Assembly (NCBI RefSeq): GCF_000003815.2
Contig: NC_049982.1
Coordinates: 12,712,917 to 12,776,916, forward strand
Source: Branchiostoma floridae
Lineage: Eukaryota; Chordata; Leptocardii; Amphioxiformes; Branchiostomatidae
Reading direction: 5' to 3'
DNA length: 64,000 bases
Made by a program: the position numbers and the translations under genes. Shown one piece after another: positions 5,288 to 46,113 of the stretch; position 1 is the first letter of the stretch; each line of letters begins with the position of its first letter. The notes beneath the pieces were generated by a model. The model made no database searches. It was not told where the DNA came from and worked only from the letters and a program-made list of their open reading frames with translations.

Positions 5288-7476
5288 GGCAACCGTTGCT
5301 TTTTCTCCATCCACCGCACGCCTGGTGCCTACTACCCACGGCCGAGCCCTGAACACTCGTCCGGCGCAAAGAACAACGTCAACAACAACAACGCGGAGAA
5401 AGGGCAGCCATCGCACCGCCACATCCGTCCCGAGGGAAGGCATCCTGACGAGGTACGAAACCGTCTGGAAGCGGTGGCTACTCTCCACCCACCATCTCCA
5501 GATCATCACAAAATACCAGTAGGTTTGCCCAACGTGCTGCAACGTGCTGTACCTGTTAAATGCTTATTGTTTTGCTTTTAAAGCCACTTATGTTGTTTTC
5601 TCACCCTTTCTATGCTCGTCTATCTGCACAGGTGTTGAAGACAGAGCACTGGTATCCTAAGCCGTTCTACCATGTCGAAACGGGCTTCTTCCCGCCTGAG
5701 TGGCTCAAGCCAAGGCCCACCAAGCACGCCCCCACCACCTCCACGCATGATAATCCACCAAAGGTAAACATTGGTTATAAACACTTTTAACCATCAATCT
5801 TATTACGAGAATATGTAACCGAAGTTACGTTACTTAAGTTGACCAGGTCAATGGTCATTGACTTTGTCTTGTCAATAATGTCTCACCTCTTATTTCAGTT
5901 CTAGATATACAAAATTCATCGACCAATCTCACCAGGTAGTTACGGTGTTTTACAGGTCATTCAGAAGCCAACTGAGGTTCCGCGGACGCGCCGGCCCTTC
6001 AGTGGCATCTGGAAAGCCCTTGGGCTGACTACGGAGCAATCCGTAGTACCTACACCGACTCAGCCTGCTACTAGTACCAAACAACAGCAGACCACCACCG
6101 TCAAAGTCACCACGGAAAAGCCCAAAACCACGCGGCTGCCGACGTCAGCACCAAGTACCGCGCCGGGACCTGTAACTCTTAAAAACACCACACCTCTTTC
6201 GACAACTAAAATGGTTCAAACGGCCACTACTCAATCACCGCCACCAACTACCAAGGCGCCTATAGTAACAACAACTGTCCCACATCAACCTACACCGACA
6301 ACTAAGATAGAAAAGACCCTTCAAGCTGTGACCACCTACAAACCATCCGAAACTATGAAACCAGTAATTGCCACCACCCGTAAACCAGCTTCGACCACCA
6401 CCATGTTCGTTCAAGAGACAATAACTAATAAAGCAGAGTCAGAAGCAACAACTCCAAAGCTGGGTCAAGATAAAGTCACCACAGCTAGTCAAAGCTCTCT
6501 GGTCACCCCAACGACAGCTCTTCCCCCGGTAATGTCTACTGCGACTTCGCAAGTTCCCGTTAGCAGCACGTTGGCCAGAAAAACATCAGGGCCTCGTGAT
6601 GCAAAGACGCGTGGAATTATCGTAACTACTGTTTCTCCGGCGAAGATGAAGACCACCATGGAAACTAGTACCATCACACCGAAGACTGAAGTCATCACAA
6701 AGCACACCATTAGTCCCAGTATTCGGGGAACAACGGCTCCTGCTACCCATATTCCAACAGGTACTGCTGACATTACTACTAAAGTAAATCAGATGCAGGG
6801 AGACCAGCCTATACTCAACAACCATATGAAGGTGACACCAGCGGCTACGCAGAAACAAACGGTGACTCCTACAGCTGTGAACGTCCTCCCTTCACCGACA
6901 GCAAAGATACCAACCGAGTCAGCAGTACCAACTTCATCAGTTGAGAAGGCAACAACCACCCCACCAAAGCGCACGGTTCCAGACCAGAAGACGTACCAAA
7001 CGGTGCCCATGGTGAGAATCATACAGGAAGCTGCCGATGTCACAAGTGCTCCCGACATGAAGACGTCGACCCGCCAAGTTCCAACTATGGGATCAAATAA
7101 AACGGAGGCCAGAAAGCATGCACCTGTGATTCAACCTGAAGTGGCGAAGCCCACGTCCGTCAGTACTACCTTGGCACCACATCCGCCACATCTGTCCACC
7201 CGGCCATCTATTGAGTTCGTCGCCACGCCGACAGCTTACCGGACGCCGTGGCACGCCTTCACCTCTGACGACACAACGGGAGCCAATGAAAATGTGTCGT
7301 CCGTCACGGCAGTACAAGGTGACGTAACGGCCTTGGAGACAGCAACCGTGACGTCATCCACGCCGATCGAATTTTTCACCGCAACAGAAAGTATGACGCC
7401 AAATGTCTCTCCAAAGGAAACTAAGCAGTCCACGCTTGCCTCCGTTACAAAGAGCACCGCTGATCAGGAGAAGTAA
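5288..7476 (+). CDS. Thr/Pro-rich mucin-like protein, 5' end not found
   Basis: Three exons join in phase 0: 5288-5518, 5632-5763 and 5956-7476 (stop TAA 7474-7476). They encode at least 627 residues. The acceptors cccatag, ctgcacag and gttttacag and the donors at 5519 and 5764 fit well; the first exon is the least certain and could instead end at a GTACGA donor near 5453. The first part is Asn/His/Pro-rich; the second holds a less repetitive segment (VLKTEHWYPKPFYHVETGFF). The last exon codes about 506 residues dominated by Thr, Pro, Ser, Ala, Val and Lys with many TT/TTT runs, like O-glycosylated mucin stalks or extracellular matrix proteins. No signal peptide, cysteine-rich domain, membrane segment or GPI signal is seen in this part; the start and any signal peptide must lie upstream. 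Function is not assigned. Confidence 0.55.
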
Positions 7477-17000: not shown

Positions 17001-20000
17001 AATACTCAGGTAAAAGGTTACACAACTAATGTTCTATAAAGAGAGTATTTGGGCTCTAGCTAGCTTGAAATTTTATTCTGCCATCCCAACTCCAATTGAC
17101 AGAAAGATACTACAAAGAACCTTTTTTGCATGAATTCCCATCATTGTGCACAAATTCCTAGCATTTTGTTCAAAGGTGAAATTTGTATATTCTTTACTCA
17201 TCTATTTTTGTCATAATGGGCTTAGATTTTTTTGTCACATGCAGCCACATTGTTTCACATGAGAGAATGATGGGTGTTGACTAAAGACCTGCATAGCACC
17301 TGTACATGTACCAATTGTTATTTAATATATATATAGTCTATTCTAAATCCAGTTTTTCTTTGGAACAATCCTTTATTTGCAGCATAAACCCATGATTACT
17401 TGTATTAAAAAGGAACAAGCAAGTAATGAGAACACCGTAGATAGAAAACAGCCTCTTCCTTTCAACAGCTTTCACACATGTATGGAACAATTAAGTTTTC
17501 TTGTGAAAAAATTCCCACCTGACTTCATCCACCAGACTGTTCATCTCATTGTACAGCCTCTCATTCTCTTGCTCAAACTGGAACAGACAGGCTTTAATAA
17601 GAAACACACTCTTCCACTTTTCCTCTGTGGCAGCTTCTGCACAATACATCAACCGACTGAAAGGTGTATAATAGATGGGGCCTTTTAGGAATGCATGATG
17701 GATGGGATCCTTTAAGGTGCATATGTTAGGGGTTTGCACCTTCTGTTAATGATGAGCTTTGTTTTAGATTTTGGTTGTACCAACAAACTTTACTTTTACA
17801 TGGGCTACACACCATCAACCTTCCAAAATATTCTTTGTTGTACATTGATGTTGCAAATGGGGCTAAATAAAAAATCTGCTTACAAATATCACTCCATCAC
17901 AGTAGAGTACTCTAATGACTAATATACATGTAGAATGTGTTTCAAGTCAGGTTTAAAATATCTTTCCTTTAATAGACAGTATCCAATGGGGTCGGAATAA
18001 TGATGGTAAAAAATGTTTAAAAAATAAATTGTTACCTAACAATAAACAACAATTTGTTTATTTCAGGCACCATGGCCATACACAAATACAATATAAACAT
18101 TTAAAAATGATTATCTACTGAAAATATATAAAAAATGACACAGTATCTCATGATGACCTATGTACAGTGTAGCAGCAGTGTCTCCAAAACCTGCTCATAG
18201 TCCAACCTACATAGAGAAGACGTCAGTAACAAGAGTCTGACTAATGATTTATGCTAATGCTTGTCAATGACGTATCGTTTGTGTTTTATACAAATGTAAA
18301 TGAAATGAGCTGATGTTGCATCCTGGAAATGTGCACAAAGCCATAAGGTAATGATTTGTAACAATGATTGCCTGCTTCATACAGGAAAGGTCATGATTCT
18401 GTACCCATACTGATCATGCCTTTATCATTTGAAAGATTGTGGCCGGTGTACCTGAGACTCACGCCTGTAGCAGCCACCAAGATGGAATATTCATAAAGCC
18501 ATCAATAGGTGGAAGGAAAGGCTACTGTAAATGATCCCTTCAGCTTACACCTCTCCCTGAATTCATTAGCATGGCTGTTACACCAGACACAGGCAATTAC
18601 TTCCAAATCCAATGCTTTAGCGTCTCAAGGTCCATTTCTACTCATAGCATAGTGTAAGATACAAGCAGAATACAAAATTGATAACATTCAAAAGAGGCTT
18701 GAAAATTTCTTTCAAGGGACCTTACTGTCATTTCTTATGCATATGCACATATGACATCAAATGCTAACAAATCAAAAGATGATATAAAGTAAGACATGCA
18801 CTGTTATCATAAACAGATGAAACATACCATCTGTATTTCCTCGGGGGATAGTTCATCATCCTCATCCTCTTCCAAATATTCCATCTGAAGAGGATCCCTA
18901 GATGCTGGTATATTTTTCATGACCTTGCTTTCATCTGTCTTCACATTTTTGGCTCCTTCCTCAGTGTTCTGTTCTGACTGTGCTTTCCTGTGTCTCTGTC
19001 GGAGTTCAGTCAGGTCAGCGCCTGTCCTTCGGCCCTCAGGCTCTAAACGGGAACTTTCAGAAGCAAACAAGGGACACTTAATGACATTGTCTGTCTAGAT
19101 GGCATAGTAGATGTAGTCTCATTGAAACATGTGTAAGAAAGCAGTTATAACTATGAGAATACTTGAGAGGGTAGAGGGAACAGAAAATATATAAATCAAC
19201 TTAATTCATTGTCCTAGTGTCTTCTAAACCACACACTGTCTTAAAGAGAAGTTGAAACTTTATGACAGCCTTTTAGAGACTATTTCAAATTCATAGATTC
19301 CGATTGGGATCTCTACTTGCAGAATTAGTGATGCTGTAAGATTGCAATCTCTATCCTTGCATATAACATTACATCTGATTGACAAGCAGTAGGTAGTCTT
19401 TTTATTCTTATAGATTTGAAAGATGCATCAGTACATGTATTAGTCACGGCAGACATGAAAAGGTAGACATGAAATGTCAGATTGTAATATACATGTATAA
19501 CATTTTCAGATACCAATTCCTTCAGGTACTTGTATATACATACAGTATTCCATTTCAGAAAAAAATGATGATTGAATTGTGACCCCATTGAAACTGGATT
19601 ATTAGATTACTTGCATATAATCAAATGGAAATGAATCAATGCACCATGTGCATCATCTTTATGAGAGGGTTATCAAGACCTAGCTATTAGGATGCAATAA
19701 TCAATACACAATGTATCTTTGTTAGATAATGTCAATGAAGGTTAGACATCCAGGTAATAAGATATGCCAAAAAGCAGTTGCTCAAGCAACTGGATATGAT
19801 TTTGCTTCAGTAACTACTTTTTGGCATATGTTAGATAATAGACAAATGTACAAATAATAGACACTCACATTCTTTTTCTGTCCACAACTCTTTTGACACG
19901 TATGGCCCTCTGCTCACTGTATAGCTTACACACGGCTGATTGGAAAAGTAAACAATACAATGTAAGAAAAAAGAAGGTCTTTGTGATACATACTTTGTGT

Positions 20001-23000: not shown

Positions 23001-25219
23001 TTCAATCTATTCAATTTTGATAAATATAATACATACATTACTCTTATCAAGGATCCATGTGATATTTTGATACAAATTTTAGAGTATAATATTCAAGTGT
23101 ATTGAACATGATTTCCTAGTGCATTTGTATTGAGTATTTGTTATTAATTAATGATCACTATTATCAATCCTTGTACTAGTCCATAAAAGCAGTTGTGTTT
23201 TTGTTAAGTGTTGTAATTGTTTCTTGGAAATCATCTATATTTTGTATGCAGATTCAGCCCTCACCTTTTAGATATGCCTCCATGAGCTCAAACACTGCCT
23301 CTCTGTGGCTACGCACTTGTTGTGGCATTGGTTGTTTTAGTACTGAAAACAAACAAACAAATGACCATGATTGTGATGATTGCAACCAAAGTATCTGTTC
23401 AATGAACACAAGTCTCTGAATAATGTTAATCATCTAGTTAGGGAAGCAGGCTTAGCTTGAGCACAGCAGCACACAAGTACTGAGTTAGGTAACTGTTTCA
23501 GTACAGTTCATTTAGATTACAGGCACATATAGTTAGGCATAGTCACCAGTAAGGAACAAGATTTGACTGCACGTCAGTCTACTATATATGTATATAGTGT
23601 ATATAATATATGTATATATGTGTATAATATAGTTTTTGTTCACCTATAATTTATTATGTTTGCCTTCATCATGGCACAATCATGAACAGTCCAGCCAATA
23701 ACAGAACAAAATAAAGTAAAGAACAAGTATTTCATCTTGGGGGATACTTTCAGCAGTACCTTCTGTCTTAAGAATCCTGATGGCCTCTGAGCAGGTGCGC
23801 ATAAACGTCTGGGCATCATTGTCAATCTGGTCCCTCTCATTGTCTGTCATCTTGGACACTTCTGATGTCAGATACCTGAAAGAATATCAAATTTACTTAT
23901 TACAATGAGTATTCTACTTTGATGGTACTTAATACAGACATTTCTTTTTCTGACCAGGCTTGATGAAGGACTGTTAGCAGAGAAACTTTAAGTCAAGGAT
24001 AAGTCAGCTATCACAACATACTAGTTTTAAGTAAGCAATTAAATGTTGACAACAGCTCTTTCAGAAACACTTATGATACTCACCCTGTGGCATCAATATA
24101 GTCCTTCCTATGCTTCAGCAGGAAATCTCTTAACTTGCTGATATTCTGTACCTAAGAGACAAAAGTAAGTCACCAACATGGAAATGACAATTCTGGCAGT
24201 CTGTATGTTATAACAGATATTGTATTGCGTGTTATGAGAGACATATTACAGTCCCTTATTGCCACTCTATAGATGTTTATCAGATACGTTCATACTTTAT
24301 AGACTAGGCCTTACTAAGTAAATCTTTTACATAAATTTTCATGTTATTGTATCTCTTTGTCCCCTTGCAATTATTACAAAGATATTGAAGTTAGCCACCA
24401 CATGAATAAAGTCAAAGGGCTGTTTGGTTGAACTGTAAAAATCTGAGGAGCAGGATATCAAACTGAAAGAGATTGATTCTTAATTACTAACTTCTACTAA
24501 CATCTGTACTGTACATATTTTAACTGTGGGGTTCAAACACCAGTCCAAACATTTTGACCTACCAATTAAAGTGTTTGGTTAGTAAGCTGGCAGACCCAGG
24601 TCAGAAGACCCTGGATGTTCAAGTTCCAGTTCAGACAAGTTTAGAGTATTATTTAGACACACCAAGGAGGTTATATAGGATACACTCCTTGGACACACAT
24701 AGTAGTTAGACAGTGCACGCTTAGTTAGAGTAGATTAGTTGAGTTATGTTGAGTTACAGTGCCAGAACATCATTAATGCCGCTTAAAGAGTTCACAGACA
24801 ACAAATTATATCAGCCAGTAGGTACCCATGTGTTGAGGCGTCTCCTCGAGCATGGGACCTTGTTACAACGAGGTTATTTCTTCGTCATTGCACTTGACGA
24901 CATTATTGGTTGATACAATTTTTACAAAATACGGTAATCCAACGTGATCACTGGCTGTTCAATAAACCATTTACTATTACTACTACTATTTGTACACGTC
25001 ATCCGGAGACTCATTTTTTTGTCGCAATCACATTTTCTTCAAGATGGTCTGAATTTTTTGACTCACCACATCTTTTGCTCTGACAATAAATTCTCCCTTG
25101 GGTCTTGGGTGAACTGTTGCTGTATTTTTGGCTTCCTCTGAACCAATGTTCAATATCTTATTGCGAGTTTTCACTGTTTTTATCGTCGCCAGAAACAAAT
25201 TTGTCCGATCGACGGCCAT
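11084..25219 (-). CDS. STX18: Syntaxin-18 (Qa-SNARE of ER and Golgi-to-ER retrograde transport)
   Basis: Ten minus-strand exons: 25067-25219, 24084-24151, 23760-23875, 23265-23342, 19869-19935, 18828-19053, 17519-17577, 16807-16876, 16561-16641 and 11084-11176. Phases agree throughout and give 336 residues; human STX18 has about 335. The start [20 protein letters not shown] matches the family's N-terminal syntaxin-18 domain. [17 protein letters not shown] and [10 protein letters not shown] are also typical of STX18. The SNARE helix lies at about residues 245-305, with a glutamine near 269 in EISRLQEIF at the expected ionic-layer position. A C-terminal tail anchor ([18 protein letters not shown]) ends the protein. 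The family pairs with BNIP1, USE1 and SEC22B in fusion of COPI vesicles with the ER. Introns are long, the last about 5.4 kb, and carry several repeats. The gene is head-to-head with the Nudix-phosphatase gene. Confidence 0.95.
11761..11894. repeat. 27-bp tandem repeat, five copies
   Basis: Five units of 27, 27, 27, 27 and 26 bases, each beginning cattcaaaga or close to it and ending tagttttacag or close to it. The units differ by a few bases. It lies in the last intron of STX18. There are no spacers, so this is a minisatellite. Confidence 0.9.
13846..13937. mobile_element. Short MITE with gcctgggtgccat ends (copy 1)
   Basis: The element begins gcctgggtgcc and ends with the imperfect complement (gacacccaggc). 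A related copy is at 58882-59007. The flanks share a 14-base direct repeat (tatgggcaaacttg at 13833-13846 and 13938-13951), a likely target-site duplication. It lies in an STX18 intron. Confidence 0.75.
19731..19829 (+). repeat. Dispersed palindromic repeat (copy 1, decayed)
   Basis: This contains gttagacatccaggtaataag, then a decayed palindrome built on gcagttgctcaagcaactgg and a partner arm. The same order appears on the opposite strand at 61438-61525. Ten-base direct repeats (gttagataat at 19721-19730 and 19830-19839) flank it, suggesting insertion. It lies in an STX18 intron. Confidence 0.7.
20112..20139. repeat. Short inverted repeat
   Basis: tagtggcgtgccc and its near-complement gggcacgtcacta sit two bases apart, with one mismatch. 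It is in an STX18 intron and no function is evident. Confidence 0.5.
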
Positions 25220-25223
25220 CTTG
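25212..25223 (-). promoter_or_regulatory. TISU/YY1-like motif over the STX18 start codon
   Basis: The minus strand reads CAAGATGGCCGT across the start codon, close to the TISU consensus SAASATGGCGGC. In vertebrates TISU marks genes with very short 5' leaders and acts both as a YY1 site and as a translation initiator. Whether it works here is inference. Confidence 0.5.
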
Positions 25224-26350
25224 CCTGGAAATATCCATCAGCTGTGGAATAGCTCATTTCCTTAGAGGGGTGCTTTTATGATACATTAAAAAAAATCACT
25301 CGCCAAATAAACTGCATAGATTATCTGCACCGACCAAATCGACATACAATACCAAAATTCTATAACAAGGTGTATTACCGTTCTTTAAAGTGGATTGTAA
25401 GTATCCTGGCCTTGCAGCCCCATTTCTCTCATCGTATAACCCAAATTGACCTTTGACCCTTCTATTTTGACGCTGACACTTTTGATTTCAATGAGGGTGA
25501 ATTTTCTCACGGGATTTGTCGATAGTTTCACTTCCCCGACCGACCAACCATGGAACCGACTGGATGTACATGTTATATGGTTCCTTGTGAATGTTTTCTG
25601 TGTCCAGATTGATTCTAAAAGGTCATCAGCGGAACCGAGAAGCGGTGGTTTCAGAGGGAGTAGCCAGTAAGCCGTGTTCTGCGTGGGTGTTACTTTTGAT
25701 GCCTGCCTTCCGAAGTTGCGTTTGACAGTTGTACACGTGGGAGCTAAAGACAGTAACGCTTGGAGGATTGCGTGTGAGGATTGCATCAACTGTGGCGCCC
25801 GTGTAACTTCCCCACAATAGAAAAGAGAACGGTAAAATATTTTGGGAACGCTTCAATTTTCTGTAGTACTAATTAATACTAATACTATGTTGTTCACGTA
25901 TACGTACCAACTTAAACATTAATGTAATCATGAACCACACTCGTCAAGGCAGTGGCCTTATATTCAAGTCCTCGATTTATTTCTTTGAGTGATTTTCATA
26001 TCAAAGTCGTGTGAATTTCATTGAGACCCTATTAGTACTCTACACTCACTACTCCCAGCTTTCATGATTTGTTGTGTCATAGGTTTGTCAAGGTCAATGT
26101 GGTTATGTTCCTTTTATGATAGCCTCTGTACATGTGTTGCAGTCATGAACTTCTCATTCATTTATGTGTCAGAAAATGAGACATTATATACCAAGACATA
26201 AAGTAGGAGTGGAATCTCTTTCACCATTAGTCAACACTTCCATTGATGATTTTTTTAAACACATTTTTTAGACTGAGGCTACCACTACCAAAAACATATT
26301 GCATGCAGATGCCAGATTAATTACCAACATGTGTAACTTTCTATGTTTAG
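25224..26350. promoter_or_regulatory. Divergent promoter region, STX18 and Nudix-phosphatase
   Basis: About 1.1 kb separates the two start codons, which face apart. The first coding exon of the right-hand gene begins after a 3' splice site (tatgtttag at 26350), so its promoter and leader exon must lie upstream, in this interval if the intron is short. A 134-codon minus-strand frame and a 74-codon plus-strand frame overlap each other here. Confidence 0.45.
25385..25789 (-). other. 134-codon open frame, uncertain small gene
   Basis: Starts at an ATG and stays open for 134 codons in one exon. The N-terminus (for example LAPTCTTVKRNFGRQ) is basic, hydroxylated and free of acidic residues, as mitochondrial presequences are. 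I recognise no family. It overlaps a shorter antisense frame and sits in a promoter interval, so chance is a real alternative. Confidence 0.2.
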
Positions 26351-26361
26351 GTGGTGATAAC

Positions 26362-29300
26362 ATGGCAAACTCAAGAGGTGCCATAGCTGTCTTTGTTGCC
26401 AGGAATCCTTGTACAGAATGCCTCCTCACCTACAATAATGACAGAGGATGGTGGCTGCCCTACACAGAGGTGGGGGACGGAGAGAGTTTTGTGGAGGCAG
26501 CTACAAGAGTAGTCAAGGAGCAGTGTGGCCTTGGTAAATACATCTGCATATACTACCAGTTTAAAAGTATAGATTGGAAAGCATGATGAATGTTGAACTT
26601 TAAGTGCTCCATGTCACTGATAAAGACAAGAAATTTGCTACCATTAGGAGATATTTGCTGTTTATCTTATGCTTCTCCCTGCTCCCAAACCCTGTAACCA
26701 ATGAGGGTTTATTGATTGAACCTTCTCACTGCAACAGATACAGACTTGGTCGTGCCAAAATGCTATTTAATTAGGTTTCAACCTTTCTTTATAATTTGTC
26801 TCCACCAGACTTAGATATTGATGGAGTTCTGGAGGTGAGACAGACCACACTGATGACATCATCCCATCCCAAGGTCATGGTGATCTTGTCTGGCTCACAG
26901 GAGGGACATGATCACAGCATACCTTTGGTGAGTATAGCAACAGGTGGTTATAGAGGCCAAATTTAGAAAAAAAGGATTACAAAATAGAACTTCTAGACTG
27001 GTTTTGATGTTTGAATTTGAAGGTTTCTTACTACTAATTACCAGTCAAATTCACCTATCCTTACCCACCAGTGTTAACTTAGGAGGTTTTATTTGTCTTT
27101 CTTACCAGGAACAACAAAGCAAAGCATCATGGTATAGTCTTCAGCAGTTGCAGCAACTCTCCACTCAGCATCAAGGCCTGTTGGGAAATGAGCCAATCAG
27201 CTGGTTCAGGCATGTGCAGAGCAATGGCCATGTTGCCCCACTGTCTGTGCTCCATTCCATCACCATGGCAAGGGAGAGGGACAGCTTTGAGGAACATGAG
27301 GAAAGCCTCCTGAAGGCTGCTAAGTTCAACCAGGAGGAACAGGAAGATCTCCTGCACGATTTCTACTCTGTGTGCTACCCCAGCATTACCATGGGTTGCC
27401 ATACATTCATCAGGTATTTTTCAGATAAAGAAGTGCCAACAGAGAAGTGCAGAAACCTCTTCAGGGCATTTGATACCAGCAATCTGAGCGTGATTAATGC
27501 AAAAGACTTCTTGATGGGCATGGCAGCTCTACAACCTTGCGTCCCACATGGAGGAATGCCTGCAGAAATTCGATGTCGCTACATTTTTAGATACTACAAC
27601 AAGAACTCTGATGGGGTCTTGAAGCAAGAAGAGCTTCAGTCAATTGTTGCAGACATCTTTGAGTGTAAAGGAAGGCAGCTTACAGCTGAAGAGTTGGCAG
27701 AAGAGACGGCCAAGGCTATAAAACTGTTTGGAAATGATGACAATGGTGGAGTGGCCCTCGCAGACTTTCTCAGTGCCGTGGGATCACTGAAATTCCGGGG
27801 TACATCTCTGTTATTCAGACTACCTCATGACTTCACCGGAAATCTGGACGCCAAGATGAATAATCTGGGGGCTGGGGGCCGGGATTTCCCTGATGCTGCC
27901 CAGCGTAGAGAGAGAAGACCATCAAAGAGAAAGAAATGGGAAGCTGGCAATGAGTCGGACAGTTCAGGCAAGGAGTCAGAAGTCGAGCTACCAGACGTAG
28001 ACATTGGGATTAAGTATGAGCTGGCTCTGCATTCCGTAAAGGTTGGTACTGTTTCAAACATTGTATCAAGTACATTTCTTAATAGTGGAACCTTATATGA
28101 AAGGAAATCAACACAGAGAAAAATTAATTTAAAGTTTATAATATTTACACCCTACACAACTAGGTTTCACAGTACTTTCAACTTTTGTGCAAAACATCTT
28201 ACATTTTCTTTGCTTTCTTGTCTTGGATAGGTGAGGAGGACAGGTGTTGTGTCAGATGTGAACACCCTGTGGGACCTACAAGGCACCAGCGCCCTGAGCC
28301 ATAGCATTGGGACTGTTCTGGAGGGGGACAAGACTCGCTTCCAGCGCCTGCCTTCTGTACAGTGCTTCAACCAGAAGTCTCATCCCAACGAGATGCTGAC
28401 TGGCCTGCGCTACTTTGAACGTCCAGTCAAGCGGCCTGATGGAACAATTGAAAAGAAGAGTTTTGAGTGGGGCCCTGTGAACAAGTAAGAAATAAACTAC
28501 TTTGAAAATAATGATAACATCACTGTGACATTAGTTTGGTTTGCACTATGTTAGTGTAGATCTATTTTGCCTTATGTCAGTCCTATCAGTTGCAAAATGT
28601 TTGACATTGTAAGGTTTACCAGGATGTTTTTTCATATGTTGTTTGAAATGAAGTGTTTTGAACAGCTGTAAAGCTTTGCTTTCTTGTCAACCCTTGTCTC
28701 TCTTTTAAGTGACCTAAATGGCCAAGGTATGAACCTAATGTATGATATGTTCCCTTCTCTACAGACCGGCCTTTGCTAAGTGTCTACTGTCCATCTGCCA
28801 TGAGGTGAAGAATGTCTTCATGGATGAACCTCGGCTTCTCAAAGTGCAGGCACCTATTTACATACTAGGTGAGGCACATTCACAGACCTAATTATAACTT
28901 ATGCTGTTGATACAGGGGAATGCATACATGTACTTCGTCTTCTGGTGTGAATTCTAAGTTCTGGTGTACAGCTAAGGCATAACACCTTTTTGTTATTACT
29001 AGTTATTGACAGTCTGACTGCTACTACAGCCACCAGCTATGGGACAGTGAGTGAGTGAACTAAACTAGTTATTATAACTTTGAAGATTAAAATTACATTG
29101 CTGTGCATTTGGATTTGATAAGAAACATGCTTATAATAATGCTTCATTTGTGTCCCCTTACAGGTGACCTGCATGGAAACTTCCAAGACTTGGTGTGTTT
29201 TGAGAAGGCCCTATGGAGGATGGGGGTCCTGCTGACTCCTGCCTCCTTCCTGTTCCTGGGGGACTATGTGGACAGGGGAGAGTACGGCATTGAAGTGGTA

Positions 29301-31082
29301 GGTGCATTTGTCAGTGGTAGGGTTGGGCACCAGTTTAGTGTACTGGTGCAAAACCGTTTTTTCCTTGTTGGACCAATTTGGGAAAACCCGAGCGTACATG
29401 TACCTGTACCTGAATTTTCTGTACCGATACCCACCCCTAGTCTATGGTGTATATCCCCTCTGAGTCTGATTTTCCTATTCATTGTTTACTGCAGACTCAT
29501 TAACAGCAGCTGGCTGTTTGCCACATTGAACAATCAGTCCAAAGAAAGATTGTTCAGCATGTTATAGCTTACATGGCATGTTCTGACGGATGAGCTTCTT
29601 ATTTTTAAAATTCTTCCTGTCTATTTAGCAAAATCTGCACCTTATGATTAAGTACTGTCACTGTTCACTTTTGAAACAAATTTCTGACTAAACATTAATG
29701 ACATTGATTCCTTTTTGTTCTTCTGTGCAGGTAGCGTACCTCTTTGCCCAGAAGCTGCTTGTTCCAGATAAGGTATTTCTTATCCGAGGGAACCATGAGC
29801 TGCGTGCAGTCCAGGAAAGGTTCTCCTTCCACACGGAGTGTCTCCAGAAGTTTGGTGAGAAGCTGGGGCTGGAGGTGTGGGAGGCCATTAACCAGTGTTT
29901 TGATGCCATGCCGGTCGCTGCAGTGGTGGACAACAACATCTTCTGTGCACACGGCGGGATCCCCAGTCTGTGGCACAGCTCGGGCCTGCTGAAGGACATG
30001 GAGAACATCCCAGTACCACTGCGCGATCCTGAAAATGAAAGTCCTCTGGCATGGGAACTGATGTGGGCAGATCCTGTATGTCTGTCTCTTTATGCTGTTT
30101 ATTTTTCGAAACAAAGATTACCAGATTACACTGGATGGTGGAACACTAAGTCTTGCAAATAATCTCCTTCATAATTAATCTAGTTGTTGAATTCTTTGAA
30201 TTTTTCTTTGTGATCTTTCCACTGCTTTGATGTTGTCAGCTTTCTACAGTACCTCAAGCTTTGTTACTTTTTGAGATAGGAGACAAAATTCCAAAAGATA
30301 TCATTAGTTTCTTGCTAAGTTGTAATAATGTTTGTTTGATCACCAAGGTGATTTGTTAAACTAAAAAAAAGCTGTTACAGCTTGTAACCTGTGATTAAGC
30401 AGCCCCAAACTGATCCTGTTTTTCATTTCCTTCAGCTAAGTTCTGACGACGTTGGTCCAGAAATGCAGGAAGAGCTGAAAACAAACCATGGCTTCACACA
30501 GAACCCCAAACGTGGCACGGCCCATGCCTTCAGTCACCAGGCACTACAGGACTTTCTGGTGAGGAATGGACTCTCCCATGTCGTCAGGGCTCATGAGGTG
30601 CAACAGGCAGGATTCCAGGTAGGAACATGTATAATACTTTTTTGCCTAAAATGTACAAAGAAAAGTAATTATTGATCATGATTCGTAATTCTTAGAATTA
30701 TTTCATTTATGTTCCTTAGTATCATTGATTCTCTTTGTATGAGTCAGGATCCATGGTATTTCTTTGTATTTATTGTGTATTTGTTTTGTGTTGTCTGAAC
30801 TATCATTTATGCTAGTTTTGGAAGAAAACAAAGAAAAATAAATATGTAAGCATTTAGGAGACACCACATGCATGTCAACTTGTGTAATCATATGTCCCTA
30901 AACATGACTTATTCTTTGTGATTTAGCTGTCTGTAACTGTTAACTGTTTCTGCCAGGTACAGCAACATGGCAAACTGCTGACTGTCTTCTCATCCTCTCA
31001 CTACTGTGGTGGGACTAACGAGGCAGCGTGTGTGCTGGCTGACAGGAACAAGATCCGTACCATACGATTAGACACAACCTAA
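26362..31082 (+). CDS. Nudix-like / EF-hand / PPP-family Ser/Thr phosphatase fusion
   Basis: Nine coding exons: 26362-26533, 26809-26927, 27109-28041, 28231-28484, 28765-28868, 29164-29297, 29731-30075, 30436-30618 and 30957-31082. They total 2370 bases in consistent phase, giving 789 residues. Residues 1 to about 110 look like a Nudix fold, with a degenerate Nudix box at 35-57 ([18 protein letters not shown] at 40-57). Residues 178-320 hold three EF-hand-like loops (219-230, 261-272, 305-316); the middle one ([12 protein letters not shown]) is closest to canonical. A basic, Ser/acid-rich linker follows ([11 protein letters not shown], 363-373, possibly nuclear targeting). The PPP core from about 524 has GDLHG 528-532, GDYVDRG 560-566, GNHE 592-595, CAHGG and SSSHYC, so the metal site looks intact. 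PPEF/RdgC phosphatases instead have an N-terminal IQ motif and C-terminal EF-hands. Substrate and location are unknown. A non-coding leader exon is implied by the acceptor at 26350. Confidence 0.85.
29321..29440. repeat. Dispersed repeat fragment in phosphatase intron
   Basis: Starts ggttgggcaccagtttagtg and ends attttctgtaccgataccca plus cccct. The terminal segment recurs at 41711-41746 with a few changes, so this is a member of a dispersed family. Confidence 0.5.
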
Positions 31083-32565
31083 GGCAGTGTTAAAAAATGT
31101 TCAGTACATCAGTATGAAGACTTGCATTTACAGCCTTGACAGCTGATTGTTTATCTGAGTAGGATTTTTAAACAGTTACTGTTTTCCTTGATTTTACAAG
31201 TGTTTGTACAATGATTATTATGAATCTTCAGAGATATATGTAGTCCGATGCTCAACAACCAACCTCTTACACACAGCAAGGAAGAACAGGTACCAGGTAA
31301 TTATAGTTGCCACACAGGATTGAACTGCATGTGGCTTCTCATAACTGAAGTGTCTAGTGCCAATTGTTCATGGTGTGGATTGATCATCATAGTTCAAGTT
31401 CAAGCTTCATTGGAAAACAAAGTTAACAAAGCTGAGTTGTTTAAATGGATGTTAAAAGAAGTGGAACCTGTTGGTTTATGCTCTAAATGTATCAAGTAGA
31501 CCATAAATGTCTGTAATTGTTGCTTATGATATGAGATCTAAGAAACATCTTGCTAAGCTAGGCTTGTGCTTTGATATGTACATTGTTGCATTTTGATATG
31601 TTGTTTTGAATGATATTGGTCTTTTTTTCATTTTTTAAAAAACATCTTTAGTATTTAAGTGCTGTTACAGTATTACAAGTTTTAATATTGCTTAACATTA
31701 TAATTATAAGATCAAAGTACTCTCATGTTCTTTTTTGTACTATTAGTAAGTACAAGGATTTATATAAATGTTTACTGGTTGTTATTGTTCTATGCTGTTA
31801 TAGATGGGTATTGATTACTGTCGATTAGAGATTCAACCTGTGATATTGTCAATCTCACCAACCATAGCTCAGTCTTCTTGTCATGTCAGAGTTAATTTCT
31901 TTCTAAGAATGCCTGACATTTGTTTCCTCAGTCAATTTGGCAATAATCCACAATGGTTGTTCCTTGTTTGAGAAATTCAGTTTCAATATCACAGTTCCGG
32001 AAGTATCTAATGTAGTTTACTGTAATATTGGTAGAGATGAGTATGTATATTCTCTGCAGAAAGGTTTTGAGGACCTGTACGTTGTACAGTGTATCCAGAT
32101 TTTGAAATATTTCTATTTTGTAGTATGTTTTGTAAACCCACAGCTTAGTATGTCATACAATTGTGGTAACATGGATGCCATTGAAATATTGACACTACTA
32201 TATTCAATATAATGGATTGTAAGTTCAATGTAAAGCAGCTGCTGCAGAATCCTCAAAATGATGAGGGCGGCAGCCCTACCGAAAGAAGAAGAAGAAGAAA
32301 GCTTCACGTTGTAAAGGAATTCTTATGTTTAAAACATTCAATTCAGCAATGATCAAGACTCCAGTGTGGTTTTATACTTCGTTAACTTAGTGACCAGTCT
32401 TGTTTTGTACAATGATGTGTTTCTATTTTTGTATGTCTTTTTCATATGGAAAGGAGTAGTAAATGCTCAAGTGTTCAGAAATGTACAATACTGTTTCCGA
32501 GTCTTGTTTCATAAAATAAGTATGACTCTTCTATTGTTTCATCATCTCAAGACAGAATCATCATT
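31083..32565. other. 3'UTR and intergenic DNA between convergent genes
   Basis: This lies between the phosphatase stop and the TANGO6 stop. It is AT-rich with no supported coding exon. A gaa-rich simple repeat occurs at 32281-32301. Confidence 0.5.
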
Positions 32566-40081
<7,516 letters not shown>

Positions 40082-43889: not shown

Positions 43890-45365
43890 TTACTCATAGT
43901 AAGCATTATAAACTTCAAAGAAACTGCTATCTTGGTTACCACTCATTTGTCTGTCCATTGCTGTTGTGTTGATATACTTGACAAACCTGAGAGTGTCAGA
44001 ATCTCTATACACTAGTGCCAGGGCATTATTCTTTGGCACCACGGTTAGGAGTTCTTCATCCTCTCCTTTAGCTATGTAAGACACATAACCACCATAGTCA
44101 CTCTTCCAGTCTTGGGCATTGAGGTAAAACATGGAGTCCAGGCAAAAATCGTTGTTGTGAGGATCTTCATCATGCATCAAGGTGTAGTGCCCATGTCTCC
44201 ACCTGCGAACCTCCCCCCAACATTTTGGAGTGCCATGGCTATCTTCTTCACCCTCTTCTTCCGATTGGAGAGTGAGCCCTGTCAGCCTGCCAAGTAGGAG
44301 GAACATTGCCTCTGACTGAAACATCTTGGTAACCTGCTGTACAAGCTCAGATAAGCTGGTACTGTCTATTTGCTCATAGTGCCTTTTGTTGAAAGGGCCT
44401 GTTGGATTCCACTGCAGATCTTTGGCTTGTAGTGCAGTAGTTACCATCTGCACCTTGTCTTCCTTCAGGAAATCTTCCAACAGGATTTCTGAGTCGTCTT
44501 CAAAATCTTGCTGTATCTGAGCCAGGACTTCCTCATCAAAATACATTGGGTTGACCCAGTCTTCAACCATGTCAAAGTACCCATCTGTCCAGGGCTTCAG
44601 TGGAACTTTGGGCTCAGGACTCGGTGCAGGTCGGGCTAGGGGAGGCCCATGGAACCATCCTCCCATGGACAGACGGCGCTTATCTGAAGCTAGGACCTCT
44701 GCTACCTGGTGGAAGGAAGACGCTGTCACTTCAAAGAAGACCAAGCTGCTCCTTGTCGGTAGGAGAGACTTAACCACCTTTTCTGGCTGGAGCCGGCCTT
44801 CAGATGAGGAGAACAGGTCAAGCGTCCCTCCGTCTGCCATGGTCCATGATGGAGGAGTGATGTACAGAATGAAGGCGATGCGTCGCTCCTCCAGCTCATC
44901 ATCATGGCAGAGCAGTGTGTCTGTGTGCTCATAGATAGAACTTGTGATGGCCACTTTATCATTCAGAGGAATTCCTGTGACCTCCATGAGCCAGTTTCTC
45001 ATCTTTTCTTTCAACAATGATGCAAAAGCACATATTGAAGGACTGTCTGCTGTCTTCAGGTCATTGGTCTGCTTGAAACTGTAAAGATCATTTGATTTTG
45101 TGTTGAAAGATAGTTGAGAAAGATCAGTCTCCAATTTGGCGACGAACTCTTCTGTAAGGTAGTTCTTGATGATGCAGTGACGAAAAGGCTTTCCCTGTAG
45201 TGTCACACAACTAGTCTCAACATCCAGACTTTGGGACCAACCCTCTCGGAGCTTCTCTGTGGTTTCTTCATCTTGCAATGCCGCTGGAAGTTGGAGCTGG
45301 GTTTGGTCACACTTTGCAAGCTTGACATGGGGCCCGGAGGTGCCTTCCTTTCTCCGTTTACTCAT
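43890..45365 (-). CDS. OGFOD1: OGFOD1, 2-oxoglutarate- and iron-dependent prolyl 3-hydroxylase
   Basis: A single uninterrupted frame of 491 residues; human OGFOD1 has 542. The N-terminal 2OG-Fe(II) oxygenase domain spans about 60-240. Expected metal ligands are H154 and D156 in LCHDDELEERRIAFILY and H219 in SFHQVAEVL; R231 in RRLSMGGWFHG is positioned to bind 2-oxoglutarate. The C-terminal Tpa1/OGFOD1 domain follows (about 260-491), with WRHGHYTLMHDED and SYIAKGEDEELLTVVP. The vertebrate enzyme hydroxylates a proline of ribosomal protein uS12 (RPS23) and affects translation and stress granules. It is shorter mainly because the acidic insertion before LMHDED is reduced. The coding region has no intron, unlike the multi-exon vertebrate gene. 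No poly-A tail scar or target duplication was seen, and no frame damage, so it looks functional. Confidence 0.95.
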   Translation of the reverse strand: MSKRRKEGTSGPHVKLAKCDQTQLQLPAALQDEETTEKLREGWSQSLDVETSCVTLQGKPFRHCIIKNYLTEEFVAKLETDLSQLSFNTKSNDLYSFKQTNDLKTADSPSICAFASLLKEKMRNWLMEVTGIPLNDKVAITSSIYEHTDTLLCHDDELEERRIAFILYITPPSWTMADGGTLDLFSSSEGRLQPEKVVKSLLPTRSSLVFFEVTASSFHQVAEVLASDKRRLSMGGWFHGPPLARPAPSPEPKVPLKPWTDGYFDMVEDWVNPMYFDEEVLAQIQQDFEDDSEILLEDFLKEDKVQMVTTALQAKDLQWNPTGPFNKRHYEQIDSTSLSELVQQVTKMFQSEAMFLLLGRLTGLTLQSEEEGEEDSHGTPKCWGEVRRWRHGHYTLMHDEDPHNNDFCLDSMFYLNAQDWKSDYGGYVSYIAKGEDEELLTVVPKNNALALVYRDSDTLRFVKYINTTAMDRQMSGNQDSSFFEVYNAYYE

Positions 45366-46113
45366 GTTGGTACCAGATACAGTAACAGATGACAGTACTC
45401 ATACACGTGTACACAACTGGTACCATATAAAATGTCCAAGCTTCTTCCTTATGATATTCACAGCAGTCTAACCCACGCATAAGCTTATCCAGACTACTTC
45501 TTAGAAAGTTTCAACACATTCAAGACGCCAGGATGATTTCCTCCGAAAGTGGTGTCTTCGGGAAATATTCTGGAGTCAATCCGAACATCTCAGCGCGGGA
45601 GTCAGACCCACATGTCTTTCCGCCATCATGGTCCTACAAATGGTAAAATCAATTTTAGTTGAGGGGTGGGGCGGTCAAGATACAGATTTCTAGTTAGCAA
45701 TAAGAATTCTTTATCGATGTCATATAACGTTAACAGTCATGAATATTGATGAATATTGATTAAAACAAATAATAGTAATTTTTATTGCAGCGTTTGTATG
45801 ATCGAAAGAACGTTTCTTTCGAAAATAATGTCCCATACATCCCCTCAATAATGGTAAATTCCTGTGGGCGTGTCTGTCCTGTCACACCCCTGTGGCAAAT
45901 GGAACATTCTAATTTACTGTCCCAAAATGCAACATTCCAACATGGTGTCGGGGGCATATTGACAATTTTATTTACGGACATTTTCAGGGTTTATACCAAA
46001 ACATGAACGTTTCGACCAACAACTATGTAATCTAATCCATGAAGGACCTTGGGGACATTCCAATGAACTGAAGTCCTACAGGATTTCTCTCCTGGAATTA
46101 CGGAGGTGGCGCA
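45366..46113. promoter_or_regulatory. Divergent promoter region, OGFOD1 and ZFYVE27
   Basis: About 750 bases separate the opposed start codons. A YY1-like word (cgccatcatgg on the + strand, 45621-45631) lies in it. A minus-strand ATG within that word opens only about 18 codons and is more likely leader or promoter sequence than a gene. Confidence 0.4.

Follow-up and report, generated by a model that had tools for sequence, protein, structure and literature searches.

The 64,000-nucleotide stretch of Branchiostoma floridae DNA considered here (assembly GCF_000003815.2, contig NC_049982.1, positions 12,712,917 to 12,776,916; hereafter the window) contains a gene whose single open frame encodes a 789-residue protein consisting of a Nudix domain, an EF-hand module, and a PPP phosphatase catalytic domain, in that order. 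These three parts are very likely fused in one protein, and the combination, so far as could be seen, is undescribed, representing something new within a known kind, the PPP phosphatases with fused EF-hands. In the explanation considered probable, the N-terminal half of the protein would regulate or position an active phosphatase by binding, without cutting nucleotides and depending on calcium weakly or not at all.

Spliced together, the nine exons give 2370 bases, or 789 residues and a stop, with no internal stops. GT-AG borders are found at 8/8 introns, and Pfam places the domains in the order that the initial annotation of this DNA had given; its model of one nine-exon frame is upheld. The fusion is very likely genuine because the Nudix match enters exon 3, whose single open frame also carries the EF-hands. 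Exons 1 and 2 alone score 21.4 bits against the Pfam NUDIX profile (residues 6-69), and inclusion of 19 residues from the start of exon 3 raises the score to 27.2 bits (residues 6-112). An artefactual fusion is therefore unlikely, as the match crosses the exon 2/3 junction. That exons 1 and 2 form part of another mRNA is highly improbable: although the model rests on genomic sequence and codon support for these exons is no more than moderate, residues from exon 3 lengthen the Nudix match and raise it by 5.8 bits, the intron phases fit, and the splice sites are canonical. Codon usage was scored after training on two neighbouring genes, with 2000 random open stretches for comparison; the score is reached by 57 of them for exon 1, 58 for exon 2, and 107 for the two exons jointly.

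The phosphatase domain looks intact, in line with the earlier claim of a complete one. Pfam Metallophos scores 102.9 bits in the 789-residue protein (cut-off 21.5), and the motifs and the metal and phosphate ligand residues of a PPP Ser/Thr phosphatase (GDxHG, GDxVDRG, GNHE, HGG, and RAH) appear as GDLHG (residue 528), GDYVDRG (560), GNHE (592), HGG (646), RG (713), RAHE (738), and Y764. All ten positions compared with the active site of PP1 are kept (D529, H531, D561, R565, N593, H594, H646, R713, H740, and Y764), with roles that we take to be those of their PP1 counterparts. From these residues we infer that the protein is probably an active PPP-type Ser/Thr phosphatase. Among the best 60 of 89 PDB matches of the domain, the best single stretch belongs to BSU1 (192 bits), followed by calcineurin A (at most 172 bits), FAP15 (166 bits), and named PP1 chains (at most 162 bits); a 620-residue calcineurin chain heads the list through two summed stretches (163 + 71 bits).

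The position of this domain within the PPP family was considered in a 14-row tree. Besides the window protein it comprises six rows assembled from tblastn pieces, the PPEF row from the same genome being one of them, four rows entered by hand, PPEF1 included, and three taken from printed PDB alignments. The neighbour of the window protein is calcineurin A, weakly supported at 62/84, and PP5 and PPEF form a separate group (100/99). Approximately unbiased (AU) tests reject a grouping of the window protein with PPEF alone (p-AU 0.000164); groupings with PP1 (p-AU 0.161) and PP2A (p-AU 0.069) are not rejected. The genome also encodes a separate PPEF gene (locus L039, on C7), which scores 365 summed bits to PPEF1 versus 45 to the window protein. 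These results rule out a PPEF/RdgC orthologue and agree with the earlier view, based on domain order and on the Nudix domain, that the gene is not PPEF/RdgC; the EF-hands (about 157-319) precede a PPP domain that begins at residue 501.

The likeliest home of the gene appears to be the EF-hand Bsu1 group, since members of this group have been reported from choanoflagellates, the nearest relatives of animals, though this placement is not proved by the tree. Descent as a divergent animal member of that group, with the Nudix part added later, is compatible with the mechanism held probable and with either of its rivals weighed below, and the arguments for and against it are about evenly poised. The single-stretch PDB match to BSU1 supports such kinship, as do an insertion partly common to the two proteins (GExxGxExWxxINQxFD) and the presence of EF-hand Bsu1 phosphatases in choanoflagellates (PMC8249667). 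However, the insertion is no clean mark of BSU1 because PPEF1 (three residues) and PP2A (one residue) also carry extra residues there, the stretch from FTxN to RAHExQxAG is closer to calcineurin, and calcineurin A is the neighbour in the weakly resolved 14-row tree, in which a BSU1 grouping is not recovered, although the AU test does not reject it (p-AU 0.42). Kelch repeats, as expected of Kelch-type Bsu1 proteins, are absent among the 7 Pfam families matched at E<=10.

The EF-hand module is recognized by Pfam EF-hand_7 at 34.2 bits as an isolated segment (cut-off 30) and at 29.2 bits, narrowly below the cut-off, in the whole protein. A phmmer search of PDB with residues 155-339 yields 130 matches at E<=0.1; among the best 60 the first is GCAP2 (1.1e-9; residues 157-299 on positions 7-142 of a 204-residue chain), followed by calbindin (1.2e-7, in the region of hands 3-4) and KChIP1 (1.7e-7; residues 166-318 on positions 8-160 of 180). 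Neuronal calcium sensors contain four EF-hands, the first of which is degenerate and carries a CPxx sequence; the CPS segment of GCAP2 and KChIP1 belongs to this hand. Only hands 2-4 are detected by Pfam, and a CYPS sequence lies where GCAP2 and KChIP1 have CPS. Alignment with these two proteins therefore suggests an extra, degenerate first hand, so that the module probably comprises four hands; the EF-hands annotated initially are confirmed, and the three counted then would be hands 2-4. A PROSITE-type pattern for the canonical 12-residue loop has 0 matches in the whole protein. The nearest to it is EF-hand 3, which keeps Asp5, Gly6, and Glu12 and is the most plausible, putative calcium site. 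An AlphaFold prediction for exon 3 alone (mean pLDDT, the predicted local distance difference test, of 40) is uninformative.

The Nudix domain scores above the Pfam cut-off of 21.1 bits both as an isolated segment (27.2 bits, profile positions 4-120 of 134) and within the 789-residue protein (23.4 bits). When residues 1-169 are compared with PDB, 32/32 matches at E<=10 are Nudix proteins, some of them taken by us to be so from their names, with NUDT18 the best (E 0.00093). For residues 1-116 the count is 36/43, and the seven other matches (a surface glycoprotein, four spastins, and two oxidases) all have E>=0.44. Nudix matches in NCBIfam and PHROGs are weak (14.4 and 15.4 bits), and a PHROG of unknown function scores 15.5 bits. 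Measured against the motif of active hydrolases, GX5EX7REUXEEXGU, the box reads T-x5-E-x7-R-V-V-K-E-Q-x-G-L and keeps six of nine fixed positions; Thr stands in place of the leading Gly, and V50 and Q54 occupy the sites of the first and third REUxEE glutamates. The active hydrolase motif is thus absent. A proline downstream of the box is a signature of ADP-ribose specificity, and by eye it is absent here. The corresponding box of human TRPM2 NUDT9-H, RILRQE, lacks the first REUxEE glutamate, and this domain binds ADP-ribose without hydrolysis (PMC6461439). Because the box of the window protein is degenerate, nucleotide hydrolysis is unlikely; by analogy with TRPM2, ligand binding without hydrolysis is possible. 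No Pfam family and no PDB match at E<=10 was found in the linker between the EF-hand module and the phosphatase, part of which does not look of low complexity by eye and which may include an autoinhibitory or docking segment.

In the mechanism held to be probable, an active PPP phosphatase would be preceded in the same chain by two domains that control it by binding and by changing conformation. The part of a calcineurin-B-type subunit would be taken by the EF module, built into the chain and having at most one plausible calcium site, and the Nudix domain, having lost its hydrolase residues, would act as a non-hydrolysing nucleotide sensor or as a docking surface. Published precedents for parts of this picture are TRPM2, DBC1/CCAR1, Leishmania PPEF, and the EF-hand Bsu1 proteins. 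The initial annotation had instead suggested dual gating, in which the EF-hands would respond to calcium and the Nudix domain to ADP-ribose or another nucleotide. Both domains are present as it supposed, EF-hand 3 keeps three of its characteristic residues, and TRPM2 is a case of ADP-ribose binding by a Nudix domain that is catalytically dead (PMC6461439). Calcium gating is nevertheless weakened by the absence of any canonical EF loop, and a nucleotide or ADP-ribose-type ligand by the loss of REUxEE glutamates 1 and 3 and the absence, by eye, of the ADP-ribose signature, and dual gating is accordingly regarded as doubtful. Also rather unlikely is a constitutive phosphatase whose Nudix and EF-hand parts are inert and have a structural or docking role, the N-terminus setting only its partners or place. 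Both sensor parts are indeed degenerate at ligand positions, and degenerate sensor domains have been published for Leishmania PPEF (PMC1885993) and DBC1/CCAR1 (PMC4287135), but EF-hand 3 has Asn1 and Glu12 and might retain binding, and human TRPM2 binds its ligand despite a lost box (PMC6461439).

Several points weigh against binding-based control of a fused phosphatase, or against the placement of the gene on which it draws. The Nudix match in the whole protein is modest, and the EF module may be only structural because none of its loops fits the canonical pattern. Codon usage gives moderate backing to exons 1 and 2, and exon 1 scores 0.105 in another frame versus 0.143 in that of the model. 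In the tree the phosphatase branch is very long (1.86), its placing is unsure, and a joint grouping with PP5 and PPEF is not rejected (p-AU 0.149); for these two reasons a position on the PP1/PP2A/calcineurin/BSU1 side of the PPP family is likely, not proved. For TRPM2 itself, the roles of its two ADP-ribose sites have been called unclear (PMC6461439). A bolder proposal, which we consider improbable, is that the gene represents a new animal phosphatase class in which a nucleotide-sensing, non-hydrolysing Nudix domain and an N-terminal calcium-sensor module would jointly set a fused calcineurin/BSU1-like phosphatase. Such a class, if real, would parallel among phosphatases what is seen in TRPM2, a single effector that responds to calcium as well as to a Nudix ligand. 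The coordinates of the gene and its parts are collected in the table.

Table. Parts of the Nudix/EF-hand/PPP gene, in positions of the window.
Feature	Position	Strand	Remarks
Whole coding gene, 789 codons + TAA	26362..31082	+	joined frame; GT-AG introns; each exon single-place in genome
Nine exons	26362-26533, 26809-26927, 27109-28041, 28231-28484, 28765-28868, 29164-29297, 29731-30075, 30436-30618, 30957-31082	+	
Exon 3	27109..28041	+	one open frame with end of Nudix match and EF-hands
Nudix domain, residues 6-114 (exons 1, 2, and start of exon 3)	26377..27159	+	Pfam PF00293; PDB matches
Degenerate Nudix box, residues 35-57	26464..26532	+	6/9 fixed positions
EF-hand module, residues about 157-319	27286..27774	+	aligns with neuronal calcium sensors; EF-hand_7
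Likely degenerate EF-hand 1, CYPS region, residues 186-197	27373..27408	+	aligned with CPS of GCAP2 and KChIP1; without Pfam match of its own
EF-hand 2 loop, residues 219-230, Leu at position 5	27472..27507	+	
EF-hand 3 loop, residues 261-272, Asn at position 1, Glu at 12	27598..27633	+	
EF-hand 4 loop, residues 305-316, Gly at position 1	27730..27765	+	
Linker, residues about 320-500, basic patch at 363-373	27775..28786	+	no known domain
PPP phosphatase catalytic domain, residues 501-789	28787..31082	+	catalytic motifs present

At the 5' end of the gene a possible 3' splice site (AG, 26349-26350) lies 11 bases before the start codon at 26362, and for this reason a 5' untranslated exon may exist further upstream; a second in-frame ATG is also found upstream of 26362, within the same open stretch. 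Downstream, neither AATAAA nor ATTAAA occurs in 31083-33000. There are no tandem repeats in 24000-33000, and no tRNA genes or Rfam families within the 64-kb window. Head to head with the phosphatase gene is a probable syntaxin-18 gene with pieces at 25028-25237 (-) and 18810-19094 (-). The first of these matches Syntaxin-18_N at 28.8 bits, just below the Pfam cut-off of 30.6, and the second, with 0 Pfam families, resembles syntaxin-18 and presumably also belongs to it; the two divergent genes may share a promoter region. On the other side, pieces of a TANGO6 gene cover 33804-39117 (-), with TANGO6_N at 38017-39117 (219.6 bits) and RTP1_C1 at 33804-34538 (69 bits). An OGFOD1-like oxygenase (Ofd1_CTDD 151.2 bits, 2OG-FeII_Oxy_4 125.1 bits) occupies a single open frame of 502 codons at 43893-45398 (-); the gene therefore seems intronless over that length, and its neighbours are split into many exons. 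A Thr/Pro/Ser-rich, mucin-like open frame of 523 codons at 5905-7473 (+) matches no Pfam family at E<=0.01.

The genome searched comprises 513,431,437 bases, with the window on C4, and only the best candidates were scored. Within that scope each exon of the phosphatase gene is found at one genomic place. A search with the whole protein returned 22 matches, nine of them its own exons and 13 phosphatase-only pieces (26-59 bits, residues 502-772), and no second Nudix or EF-hand copy among the candidates scored. Other PPP phosphatases encoded in the genome include PP5 (L038, on C1) and PP1 and PP2A types, and calcineurin A is the best match of 0/10 phosphatase loci compared. A protein search of viral contigs gave no relatives. 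A degenerate DNA motif was found at a single locus each in viral contigs and prokaryote genomes; tblastn over the sequence set that includes both loci produced a phosphatase-like match that is weak (E 0.002, 25% over 138 positions) and lies apart from the motif. Titles and abstracts of the Nudix literature searched, mostly without subscription papers and thus weak evidence of absence, mention no Nudix-EF-hand-PPP protein, and the word 'nudix' is absent from the main text of the phosphatase papers checked, PMC8249667 included. The earlier remark that no named family was known to have this layout is borne out in the titles and abstracts covered.

Several known systems share part of this architecture. 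The PPP domain is 34.7% identical to calcineurin A over 291 positions, and its EF-hand subunit, calcineurin B, belongs broadly to one class with the EF module, which stand-alone B chains match near E 0.001 (among the best 60 of 130 matches). In calcineurin, B is a separate chain that binds behind the catalytic domain; the window protein, by contrast, carries its EF module N-terminally on the phosphatase chain itself, and the best match of this module is GCAP2. PPEF/RdgC proteins do combine a PPP domain and EF-hands in one chain, in the order IQ motif, PPP, and EF-hands (PMC11559042), whereas the window protein has its EF-hands first and no match to an IQ pattern. PPEF1 also has GDFVDRG in place of GDYVDRG, a difference that alone proves nothing because a PP2A-type locus of the B. 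floridae genome (L034) has GDFVDRG as well. The EF-hands of Leishmania PPEF do not bind calcium (PMC1885993). The EFPP proteins of Plasmodium and Toxoplasma are likewise PPP phosphatases with EF-hands and are listed apart from PP7/PPEF (PMC4094981, PMC8785970), but Plasmodium EFPP is called a likely inactive pseudo-phosphatase (PMC3447748), and the window protein keeps its catalytic residues.

Degenerate sensor domains are combined in a different setting in DBC1/CCAR2 and CCAR1, whose Nudix domain is described as inactive and whose EF-hand as unlikely to bind calcium; the order there is S1-like, Nudix, EF-hand, and coiled coil, with no phosphatase (PMC4287135). TRPM2 resembles the window protein in carrying, on a larger effector, a Nudix domain whose catalytic box may be lost; in human TRPM2 the ligand is bound all the same (PMC6461439), and binding of ADP-ribose to its NUDT9-H domain gates the channel (PMC5671594). 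It differs in being an ion channel with a NUDT9-type Nudix domain, that of the window protein matching NUDT18 best, and in the boxes of invertebrate TRPM2, which are reported to be canonical. PP1, PP2A, and calcineurin are controlled through separate subunits (PMC10214084). Two sensor-type domains and an intact-looking phosphatase in one chain would offer a compact test system for the action of nucleotide-binding and calcium-sensor folds on a PPP active site. A likeness in architecture is also seen with Bsu1 phosphatases that have a Bsu1-type PPP domain and EF-hands but no Kelch repeats, reported from two choanoflagellates (Monosiga and Salpingoeca), the apusozoan Thecamonas, the fungus Basidiobolus, and the stramenopile Nannochloropsis (PMC8249667). 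No animal is among the carriers named there, and the main text of that paper contains neither 'nudix' nor 'Branchiostoma'; if a fuller tree places the present gene in this group, EF-hand Bsu1-type phosphatases would extend to an animal.

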